Part shown: positions 56,116-59,050 of the stretch, in pieces
Position numbering within the stretch: position 1 is the first letter of the stretch
How the letters are laid out: every line of letters begins with the position of its first letter
Translations under genes and position numbers: made by a program
NCBI GenBank assembly: GCA_027451445.1
Contig: DAIDJG010000379.1
Coordinates: 1 to 60,656, forward strand
From: Singulisphaera sp.
Lineage (GTDB): Bacteria > Planctomycetota > Planctomycetia > Isosphaerales > Isosphaeraceae
Direction of reading: 5' to 3'
DNA length: 60,656 nt
Notes under the pieces: generated by a model
Told to the model about the DNA's origin: nothing
Database searches by the model: none
The model's input: only the letters and a program-made list of their open reading frames with translations

Positions 56116-56952
56116 ATGTCCTTGGACTCCAAGTCGACGCCCCCCCCGACGAGCGCCTCGTCTGTGAAGCACCGGGACCAGGGAATCCGGATTTTCACGT
56201 ATCCCAAGACCATCTTCTTCTTTCCAACGCTCGTGATCGCGTTTCTCTGCGGCTTTGTGATGCTTTACGAGGAGCATCAAAATGACAAAAACAAGTCCGC
56301 GGCGGCGGCCGTGAAGACGATCGAATCGAGCGGCCCACAAGCCTCGTCGGACCAGCCAGTCACGAAGGAAGAGCGCTTTCGGAGGGTGGAGAATCTAGTC
56401 GCAATTCTGTTCCTCACGGTCTTCGCGTTCAACCTCTTGATCATGGCCATCGATTTTCCGCGATTCGCTGCCGCGGGATTGCTCGTGACGATACTCTTCA
56501 TCCTGTTTTTCGTGCTCTGGTTCGGCGCGTATTTCCAGTTGAACGTCGCGCGCGCAATCTTGCATTTCCTAGGCCATCTCTACGGTTACGCGAACTCTGG
56601 ATTCTACTTCACCATTGGAGTGATCCTGAGCGTGATCTTCGCGGTCATCTACGTGACTCGCTGGCTCGATTACTGGGAAATCATGCCCAACGAGATCTTG
56701 CACCACCACGGTCCACTGAGCGATCTGGAGCGTTTCCCTACGCTGAACCTGAAGTTCGACAAGGAGATTCCCGACGTCTTCGAATTCGCTTTTCTGGGTT
56801 CTGGGCGACTCGTTCTCCATGTTGCCGATGAACGCAAATCGATCGTGCTGGACAATGTGTTGTTCATCAACACCAAAGAAGAGGCGCTCAAGAAGCAGAT
56901 GAGCCGCCTCGAGGTCCGCGTCACGACCGACCAGGAGGTCGCCGAGAGCTGA
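56116..56952 (+). CDS. Multi-pass membrane protein of unknown function
   Basis: 278 residues; ATG at 56116 with GGAG about 10 bases upstream. Four membrane helices are visible: IFFFPTLVIAFLCGFVMLY (about 33-51), ENLVAILFLTVFAFNLLIMAI (about 91-111), AAGLLVTILFILFFVLWFGAY (about 118-138) and FYFTIGVILSVIFAVIYVTRW (about 163-183). A cytoplasmic C-terminal region (about 185-278) is soluble and charged (WEIMPNEILHHHGPLSDLERFPTL, RLVLHVADERKSIVLDNVLFI). No family recognised; it may be a membrane-anchored regulator or planctomycete-specific protein. It stands alone between a repeat tract and the previous gene. Confidence 0.75.
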   Translation: MSLDSKSTPPPTSASSVKHRDQGIRIFTYPKTIFFFPTLVIAFLCGFVMLYEEHQNDKNKSAAAAVKTIESSGPQASSDQPVTKEERFRRVENLVAILFLTVFAFNLLIMAIDFPRFAAAGLLVTILFILFFVLWFGAYFQLNVARAILHFLGHLYGYANSGFYFTIGVILSVIFAVIYVTRWLDYWEIMPNEILHHHGPLSDLERFPTLNLKFDKEIPDVFEFAFLGSGRLVLHVADERKSIVLDNVLFINTKEEALKKQMSRLEVRVTTDQEVAES

Positions 56953-57451
56953 GGAGGGATCCCCGACCCCGTGGATGGGCCCCTTGCGGTCGCGCGGTGC
57001 AAAGTTAGGCTTGTACACTGTTTTGTCGGTTTCACTTCCGAATGGAAGTATTGCACTCGTGATTCTTTATGTTTTCCGCCCCAAAGGGGCCAAATATGAT
57101 AGCCTGGGGCAACGCCCCAGGACGATTCACGATGCGTAAACCTCCCCGCCCCCGCTCCTTTTTCGCTGGCCTATGGCCAGCGAAAAAGGAGCGGGGGCGG
57201 GCAAACAAAGCAGTATACAAGGCTATTCTAATACCTGGGGCGTTGCCCCAGGCTATCATATTTGGCCCCTTTGGGGCAGACGGTGCAGCCGCGTTGATCC
57301 GGGAAGCAAACGCTCACGCGCAACAGACTCCCGAAGGGCCGTTTTCCTGGTCAGCCCCAACATCTCGCCGCGCCACTCTAGCCCTCTTGTATCCCGCAAG
57401 AGCGAAGGCACGTAACGCCAAGGCGTCGCTCGCGAGCAGGCCCCGAAGTGC
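56953..57451. other. Intergenic region containing the 200-bp nested palindrome
   Basis: About 500 bases between convergent genes (membrane protein, plus strand; response regulator, minus strand). The central 200 bases are the nested palindrome at 57078-57277. The flanks (56953-57077 and 57278-57451) hold short frames only; none looks like a gene. Confidence 0.6.
57078..57277. repeat. 200-bp nested perfect palindrome (MITE-like)
   Basis: Bases 57078-57121 and 57234-57277 are perfect 44-bp inverted repeats, with the central part GGGGCCAAATATGATAG. Inside, 57145-57171 and 57175-57201 form a second perfect 27-bp hairpin with a 3-base loop (TAT). The two spacers (57122-57144 and 57202-57233) are unrelated to each other. 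The arms contain shorter palindromes (GCCCCAAAGGGGC, CCTGGGGCAACGCCCCAGG). There is no transposase frame, so it would be a non-autonomous element if mobile. Because it sits between convergent genes it could also act as a bidirectional terminator. Confidence 0.8.
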
Positions 57452-58873
57452 TCACGCCTCTGCCGACTCAAACTCCACAGGGTCTTTGAACCGCGTACGG
57501 TCGAGCTCGTATTTTTGGAGCTTCTGAGTCACGCTGCGCCGTGAGAGCCCGCTGTGTTTGGCACAACGAGCCACGTTGCCCTTGTACTTCGCGAGCAACC
57601 GCGTCAGATAGTCGCGTTCGACCCGGCCGACCAGATCGCTGGTCAGATCCGGGAGGGGACGCTCGATATCGATCAGTGAACTCGAGTATGGTCGGGGCAC
57701 GCGCGGAAAGACGGTGGTTGGAAGCGCATCGCGGTGAACCGCCGCGCCGTCCGCCATTGCAACGGCCGCCTTGATCGCGTTCTCAAGCTCACGGACATTG
57801 CCCGGCCAACTGTGCGCGAGGAGAGCCTGCATCGCCTCCGTGTCAATCTCGGTCACGGGCGGAGTGCTCATCCGTGTGAGCTTGACCAGAAAGTGCATGG
57901 CGAGGAGCGGAATGTCCTCGATGCGCTCGCGCAGGGGGGGTAGCTCAATCCGCACGACGTTCAGTCGGTAGAACAGATCCGGACGGAACCGCCCTGCCTT
58001 GACCTCGTCTTCCAGGCGCTTGTTGGTTGCAGCGACAATGCGGACGTCGACCTTAACGGTCTCCGTGCCACCAATCCGTTCAAACGTCCCGGTCTGCAAC
58101 ACACGGAGCAGCTTGGCCTGCATCGACGGTGACACATCCCCCACCTCGTCGAGGAAAAGCGTGCCGCCATCCGCCAGTTCGAAGCGCCCTTTCTTTCGCT
58201 TGTCGGCGCCCGTGAAGGCCCCCCGTTCATGCCCGAACAACTCACTTTCCAGGAGCGATTCGTGCAACACCGCGCAATTCAACGCGTGGAGCGGACCGAC
58301 CCGACGGTTATCCGCTGCGTGAAGCGCCTGGGCGACGAGTTCCTTACCCGTTCCTGTCTCACCGTAGATCAAAACTGTCGAGCCCAGCGGCCCGACCTGC
58401 TCGATCATGTCGAAGATGCGCCTCATCTTGGGACTCTTCGACACCATGTTCTGAAAGCTATACGACTCGCGCAACTGCTTTCGAAGCTGCTCGAGCTCAT
58501 CGATGAGGCGCCGACGGTCCATGATCCGCTGCACGAGAATTCGCAGATGCTCGGGCTCATATGGCTTGGTCACGAAATCATCCGCACCGGCCTTCATAGC
58601 ATGCAGCGCGATCTGCGTGTCGCCGTGACCTGTCAGTACGATGACACCCAGCGGCATCTTTTCGGCCCGCACTGTGGCGAGGAGGTCGAGCCCCGACATG
58701 TCGGGCATGCGCAGGTCGGTGACCATCAGGTGGAACACACGTCGTCGCAGCGCATCGAGTGCGGATTGACCGTCGGTCGCGGTCTCGACCTCGTCGCCAT
58801 CCATCCCCAGTACGACTCGCAAGTGTTCCCGAATCAGGGGGGTGTCGTCGACTACCAGGATACGTCGCTTCAT
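57452..58873 (-). CDS. Sigma-54-dependent response regulator (NtrC family)
   Basis: 473 residues from the ATG at 58873 (AAGGGG about 9 bases upstream; the frame open to 58969 is unsupported). The receiver domain (1-120) has D9/D10, the phospho-acceptor D53 (VTDLRMPDMSG), T81 and K103 (VTKPYEP). The AAA+ domain (about 140-375) shows Walker A GETGTGKE (171-178), the sigma-54-contact GAFTGA (218-223), Walker B LDEVG (241-245) and RLNVVRIELPPLRER. A C-terminal Fis-type helix-turn-helix follows (GNVARCAKHSGLSRRSVTQKLQKY, about 433-456). Phosphorylation should switch it on to activate sigma-54 promoters. No histidine kinase gene is adjacent, so it is an orphan here. Confidence 0.95.
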   Translation of the reverse strand: MKRRILVVDDTPLIREHLRVVLGMDGDEVETATDGQSALDALRRRVFHLMVTDLRMPDMSGLDLLATVRAEKMPLGVIVLTGHGDTQIALHAMKAGADDFVTKPYEPEHLRILVQRIMDRRRLIDELEQLRKQLRESYSFQNMVSKSPKMRRIFDMIEQVGPLGSTVLIYGETGTGKELVAQALHAADNRRVGPLHALNCAVLHESLLESELFGHERGAFTGADKRKKGRFELADGGTLFLDEVGDVSPSMQAKLLRVLQTGTFERIGGTETVKVDVRIVAATNKRLEDEVKAGRFRPDLFYRLNVVRIELPPLRERIEDIPLLAMHFLVKLTRMSTPPVTEIDTEAMQALLAHSWPGNVRELENAIKAAVAMADGAAVHRDALPTTVFPRVPRPYSSSLIDIERPLPDLTSDLVGRVERDYLTRLLAKYKGNVARCAKHSGLSRRSVTQKLQKYELDRTRFKDPVEFESAEA

Positions 58874-59050
58874 GCTCGTGCCCCTTCGTTGCGGCTCATC
58901 GGGTGGGTCGTCACGAAAAGTCCCAGTCGTCACGTGACGTCCTGCCAGGAAGGGATGGGTCCGCTCCATGGACGGCTGATCGAATCATCGCGGCTGGCGC
59001 AAGGCCCCATCTCATCAAAACACCACAAATAACGTCATCTGGAGCACCGT

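Follow-up and report, generated by a model that had tools for sequence, protein, structure and literature searches.

A nested palindrome between two convergent genes

The window, that is, the whole analyzed stretch of 60,656 nucleotides, lies on contig C379 of a draft planctomycete genome bin (10.9 Mb, 622 contigs, 4.8% estimated contamination). It contains a nested palindrome flanked by a predicted membrane protein gene and an NtrC-type regulator gene, which, as originally predicted, are convergent (gene boundaries are those of the ORFs). The region is organized as follows, with the other contigs of the bin denoted by C and a number:

56116..56952, plus strand: upstream neighbor, predicted membrane protein, outside the element; no Pfam family, occurs in most related genomes
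56992..57361, no strand: probable whole element with subterminal arms, ends within +/- tens of bases; flanks shared with other copies, analogy with family B (below)
57078..57121, plus strand: left arm (outer hp1, linker ending in TAG, inner hp2); 96% identity to the left arm of C486:447-492
57078..57090, plus strand: hp1 of the left arm, GCCCC-AAA-GGGGC, from the sequence
57100..57102, plus strand: TAG, the 5' foot of hp2, in a position equivalent to the GTAG of REP sequences; from the sequence
57103..57121, plus strand: hp2 of the left arm, CCTGGGGC-AAC-GCCCCAGG, from the sequence
57145..57201, no strand: inner hairpin, perfect 27-bp stem with a TAT loop, from the pairing; same place in C419, C549 and C292
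57234..57277, plus strand: right arm, the left arm inverted; 91% identity to the right arm of C486:1187-1232
57452..58969, minus strand: convergent neighbor, NtrC-type response regulator (REC, sigma-54 activator, Fis HTH), outside the element; from domain matches

The outer arms are reverse complements at 44 of 44 bases, and their pairing extends to 57075-57121/57234-57280 if one mismatch is allowed; the inner stem (57145-57171/57175-57201) is perfect over all 27 bp. Pairing thus bears out the nested arrangement in the original prediction, including the statement that the two spacers separating the arms from the inner stem show no relation. The smaller palindromes that it had perceived within the arms are two hairpins per arm, GCCCCaaaGGGGC and CCTGGGGCaacGCCCCAGG, with the 12-base linker that carries TAG at its end located between hp1 and hp2. 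The palindrome is real and far above the level expected by chance: the 21-base arm hairpin has no matches in 100 shuffles of the window, and the single-stranded DNA fold of 57075-57280 has a predicted energy of -102 kcal/mol, compared with -36.8 +/- 3.4 in shuffles (z = -19.5). In the predicted single-stranded form, the element is a single long hairpin with the inner hairpin on top.

Diverged copies in the same genome

Altogether, the genome contains about 30 inverted arm pairs, which belong to two families, A, the family of the window element, and its sister, B. A DNA search retrieved the following relatives in family A:

C419: full copy
C292: full copy, interrupted in the right arm by an insert
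C549: one arm plus the inner hairpin
C143: arms fused, core lost
C448: remnant
C486:447-1232: both arms (identities above), with starts 740 bp apart, enclosing an intact Y1_Tnp ORF

Family B consists of about 26 inverted pairs and, additionally, C579:11670-12388, located around a second Y1 gene, so that, in each family, an intact Y1 (IS200-type) transposase gene lies within one of the pairs (C486 in A and C579 in B). The palindrome in the window represents a single copy of a probably mobile, non-coding DNA element, and the suggestion that it is a dispersed, palindrome-type element agrees with the presence of the same arms elsewhere in the genome. The multiple copies with identical ends that were proposed as a check materialized in part: the element is multicopy, but no near-identical second copy was detected in this genome, the best other family-A copies being 75-79% alike over the aligned part.

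The similarity between copies is not confined to the arms. The left flank (56992-57077) is shared with C419 and, from about 57048, with C292, and the right flank (57278-57347/57361) is shared with C143, C448 and C292. Given that these stretches on either side turn up again in other copies, the window element is probably larger than 57078-57277, with a full span of roughly 56992-57361. For comparison, the complete family-B unit is about 370-390 bp, and 32 of the 55 family-B flanks carry a 34-base end motif, GAAATCGGGAAsTTrTTCCCGGCCTGTTCCTnAG, outward-facing on both sides and 30-67 bp outside the arm; the 40 genome-wide matches of this motif are mostly next to arms. The motif (for example, G000:C160:21032-21065, and 39 others) contains a CGGGAA..TTCCCG hairpin placed symmetrically around family-B elements and may be either the true outer end or an older palindrome that the elements inserted into. 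The window has no match to it, and it is absent from both transposase-bearing copies, which argues against a firm assignment of the limits of the mobile unit and of what moves the complete family-B unit.

A short, non-coding, multicopy element with inverted ends could also be a classic MITE of a DDE transposon, with terminal inverted repeats and a target-site duplication. However, the similarity running beyond the arms implies that the outermost ends lie farther out, the transposase gene within near-identical arms encodes a Y1 enzyme rather than a DDE one, and the few copies inspected by eye showed no duplication: among these family-B copies, there was one possible GATC, at C434, and none that was consistent, the ends in the window being inexact. 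Target-site duplications are not expected for this type of Y1 transposase. We therefore consider a DDE-transposon origin extremely unlikely.

A Y1 transposase gene enclosed by the same arms

The search for a related full-length transposase with similar ends, suggested in the original prediction, leads to C486, a 4-kb contig of the bin (for which the contamination estimate given above applies). The ORF between its arms is intact and encodes a 150-aa Y1/IS200 transposase (PF01797, 6e-24; NCBIfam IS200 model NF033573 over the cut-off). The REP-transposase model NF047646 yields only 21 bits against a cut-off of 80, which places the protein outside the REP-associated class. The Y1 protein of C579 is 47% identical to that of C486, the two being the transposase copies of this genome. 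The PDB relatives by sequence are the transposases of ISDra2 and IS608, enzymes that act on hairpins or folded single strands.

We fetched 80 relatives of the two proteins from named genomes, mainly, of Verrucomicrobiota, Planctomycetota and Acidobacteriota. The HUH motif DHVH is present in both proteins of this genome and in 74 of the 80 relatives; a Y motif of the form Y[IV]..Q..[RH]H (Y---Q--HH or --RH) is found in 72 of the 80, in C579 as YIQGQEEHH and in C486 as YIEGQKERH. A WQ motif, most commonly followed by xG[YF], is present as well, and most of the relatives are 147-152 aa long. Quentin et al. (2018; PMC6006769) describe TnpA_Y1 subclass 1.2 by DH[IV]H, WQ, YIKNQKEHH (Y---Q--HH), a length of about 148 aa and low genomic copy number; by this motif and length assignment, the transposases analyzed here agree with subclass 1.2 in the HUH motif, the WQ and Y motifs, length and low copy number. 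Quentin et al. place subclass 1.2 mostly in Cyanobacteria and Bacteroidetes, whereas the relatives found here come mostly from the PVC group and Acidobacteriota. In the same work, the subclass is described as generally lacking typical terminal structures (REP, 'no'). Class 3 of the same classification (Planctomycetes, Acidobacteria, CnGA foot) was also considered and rejected, its motifs being NHVH, W[TA] and Y----Q.

Acido-Lenti-1 and the transposase in other genomes

Both arms of the window element match the Rfam family Acido-Lenti-1 (RF01687), the left one on the minus strand (57077-57121, 32.6 bits, E 2.8e-5) and the right one on the plus strand (57234-57278, 31.7 bits, E 5.1e-5). Both scores fall short of the gathering score, 37. 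Of the 72 matches in this genome, most of which form -/+ pairs about 175 bp apart, 18 sister arms exceed it. Rfam has listed Acido-Lenti-1 since 2010 among small RNAs of unknown function, filed as an sRNA from comparative genomics; the paper describing the motif gives it in a table ('RNA? y').

Among 59 planctomycete genomes, RF01687 was detected at 1e-6 in 14, with a maximum of 54 matches per genome, compared with none of 14 control genomes. The transposase profile was likewise found in 14 of the 59, 12 of these being common to both sets (Fisher p = 6.8e-9, uncorrected for phylogeny, as are the other association statistics, all of which span related genomes). When the 500 bp upstream of each transposase gene were compared with the reverse complement of the 500 bp downstream, inverted arms exceeded their own shuffles by a clear margin at 64 of the 76 testable loci; a fixed score was reached at 67 of the 76, against 9% when the flanks of different loci were exchanged and 0 of 29 control loci of an unrelated gene. 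Many of the segments matched in this comparison have the same double-hairpin layout, with sequences that differ between species. In a separate planctomycete sample, inverted arms were present at 25 of 28 transposase loci. Acido-Lenti-1 itself was found at 11 of 20 transposase loci in a first sample (two above the gathering score) and at 12 of 20 in a second (seven above), and in G066:C37, G107:C24 and G092:C12, the gene lies directly between two inverted matches. The foot preceding hp2 is G/A/T-TAG in 67 of the 68 arms in which TAGC plus a stem was detected (GTAG 26, ATAG 21, TTAG 20, CTAG 1; 66 further arms went undetected by that scan), and the window has ATAG. That 67/76 and 25/28 loci have inverted arms made of double hairpins is at odds with the reported lack of REP-type structures in subclass 1.2; this is either a disagreement with the description of Quentin et al. 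or a difference between taxa.

The filing of Acido-Lenti-1 in Rfam as an sRNA from comparative genomics and the conservation of the paired hairpins would fit a genuine small RNA or RNA element transcribed from intergenic regions. Among the adjacent matches listed, however, 19 are in -/+ order, 10 are on the same strand, and none is in +/- order, so that the inverted pairs follow a fixed orientation rule; the arms flank the transposase symmetrically; there are as many as 54 copies in a genome; and no promoter-like site was found ahead of the window copy. All these features are unexpected for an RNA gene, and that the arms are an RNA of this kind appears highly unlikely to us, although an RNA might additionally be made from the element. 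In our assessment, Acido-Lenti-1 is likely to be, rather than an RNA family, a double hairpin in the terminal DNA of a widespread group of TnpA_Y1 transposases of the subclass 1.2 type, and this group would thereby represent a separate kind of REP-transposase pair, between IS200 (with respect to the enzyme) and REPINs (with respect to inverted ends and non-autonomous copies served in trans). As far as our partial literature search shows, the interpretation of Acido-Lenti-1 as transposon-end DNA and the existence of cognate ends for subclass 1.2 are new; an earlier link between Acido-Lenti-1 and a transposase may exist in print. In three genomes, G101, G065 and G066 (loci L315, L324 and L302), two to four Acido-Lenti-1 arms stand in tandem beside the transposase, all oriented alike and spaced by about 51-144 bp.

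Conserved arms, drifting cores

Median identity between family-B copies is 89% in the arms, about 65% in the core and about 62% in the outside spacers, with random sequence reaching 59% in the same alignment. With arms so much alike and cores near random, the copies are old, and their arms are either maintained by selection or repeatedly corrected. Within family-B copies, the linkers of the left and right arms are more similar than in permutations (p = 0.0003, with shared ancestry of the copies uncontrolled); for hp1, the similarity did not exceed that in permutations (p = 0.28).

Four family-A copies have a perfect inner stem (26-32 bp) despite differing in its sequence, with changes on both sides; the stems in C419, C549 and C292 are different but perfect. 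Bertels and Rainey describe REPINs in similar terms: the ends are conserved, and the spacer, although less so, retains its hairpin through compensatory changes (PMC3116915). Because inner stems are perfect yet differ, and the copies are diverged, exact pairing does not imply recent spread. Of the two possibilities in the original prediction, recent spread or active maintenance, the former conflicts with the near-random cores and with the lack of a near-identical copy, and the latter fits the maintained arms; the element is, by these comparisons, old and maintained, not recently spread. In this genome, the type of inner hairpin seen in the window occurs nowhere outside these elements, and hence we rejected a separately inserted repeat as its source. 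The Rfam microRNA matches on the inner hairpin, all far under gathering, were dismissed as chance matches to a long stem. In C392:22549-22794 (L102), a family-B half element has a different long perfect inner hairpin (CCCGAAGCGCGAGCGAGGGATTAT/ATAATCCCTCGCTCGCGCTTCGGG) that is unrelated to the one in the window.

Neighboring genes and transcription termination

Between convergent genes, very stable hairpins could serve as a bidirectional terminator or an mRNA-stabilizing structure and be retained for that role, mobility being past; REP sequences elsewhere in bacteria can terminate or stabilize transcripts (PMC6006769). The original prediction had allowed for termination of both transcripts. In the window element, however, the terminator scan detected no U-tract or T-run after any stem. 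In the congener G001, no such element is present downstream of the orthologous membrane protein gene (the intergenic DNA is not alignable), and the regulator gene adjoins the membrane protein gene in none of the 29 related loci compared. A role in termination or stabilization would, moreover, leave the transposase link unexplained. Retention of the element for such a role thus seems very unlikely, although the element may have a secondary influence on transcripts. A single copy at a conserved syntenic place, which had been named in advance as a sign of a conserved RNA or terminator, is not what the multicopy distribution and these gene neighborhoods show. When the flanks in the window were searched against 59 relatives, the matches were arm-sized only and came from two genomes. 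The membrane protein itself, without a Pfam match, was yet found in 45 of the 59 sampled relatives.

A putative single-strand transposon family and its relation to known systems

The shared inverted arms, the single transposase-bearing copy in each family, the cross-genome association and the arm-specific conservation suggest, with a probability that we put at roughly 0.84, that the window element is a non-autonomous copy of a single-stranded DNA transposon family, in which inverted subterminal double hairpins surround a non-coding core with a third, long hairpin. It is best read as a REPIN/PATE-like element mobilized in trans by a Y1 transposase via folded single strands; the movement is what we infer from these sequence features. 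Once the element becomes single-stranded, for example, on the lagging-strand template, each arm would fold; a HUH/tyrosine transposase supplied in trans would recognize the folded arms with their TAG foot, and would cut and join single strands, moving or copying the element. IS200/IS605 transposases act in this way on subterminal hairpins, and the same has been proposed for RAYT with REPINs. Arm conservation and core drift would both be expected if nothing but the arms, and a core that is still able to fold, matters for recognition; alternatively, the arms might be repeatedly corrected against each other. The analysis turned up neither empty sites, nor excision products, nor polymorphic insertions and, as all copies are diverged, the activity may be past. 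If the proposed reading is true, a public RNA family shifts to mobile DNA, a group of single-strand transposases described without a DNA partner gains one, and an additional intermediate links insertion sequences with domesticated REP systems.

Among the closest parallels are REPINs and the REP-RAYT system (TnpA_REP; PMC3116915, PMC6006769). As in a REPIN, two inverted REPs lie in one predicted long hairpin, a TAG foot is found at the outer 5' side of hp2, the ends are more conserved than the spacer, which undergoes compensatory changes, and the genome also encodes a cognate Y1 transposase, with these ends on either side of its gene. Unlike in REPINs, two hairpins spanning about 45 nt make up each end, the foot is NTAG and not strictly GTAG/GTGG, there are tens rather than hundreds of copies, and the enzyme belongs to the IS200-like subclass 1.2 type, with its low score on the REP-transposase model. 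With the IS200/IS605 elements IS608 and ISDra2, the family shares the transposase family with its HUH and tyrosine motifs and the recognized subterminal hairpins; in contrast, its ends are inverted copies of each other with an extra outer hairpin, and there are one or two diverged transposase copies instead of many identical ones. Compared with Acido-Lenti-1 as filed, a small RNA, the arms are the same motif or score just under the cut-off, but here they are the paired DNA ends of a transposase family. In another genus (G010, L127 about 1230-1650), a related paired element lies within a further inverted repeat (TACAGCGGTTTACCGTCG / CGACGGTAAACCGCTGTA), and thus palindromes may be a preferred insertion target.

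The PATEs of Haloquadratum (PMC3119063) are similar in that they lack a transposase and have near-terminal palindromes resembling those of IS605-type transposons, a variable 20-50 bp outside the palindromes and a short conserved outermost sequence. They differ in having no terminal inverted repeats, whereas the palindromic ends here are inverted copies, in bacterial elements with another transposase subclass. In PATEs, cores are also deleted, through recombination between repeats; here, the core is gone from two collapsed copies, C143:4830-4900 (L032 1831-1901), in which the arms share one hp2, and C394 (L268), with one hp1, both of which are what deletion between palindromes would be expected to give. 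Finally, small elements are inserted into the palindromes of PATEs, and the right arm of the family-A copy in C292 is similarly split within hp2 by a 148-bp insert (C292:4417-4564; L029 1918-2065) with inverted ends ACACAAGT ... ACTTGTGT. This insert, a single copy in this genome, has GGCGTTGCCC on either side, in a duplication-like arrangement, and in the congener G001:C92, a similar ACTTGTGTAGTA end abuts the same point of the arm.
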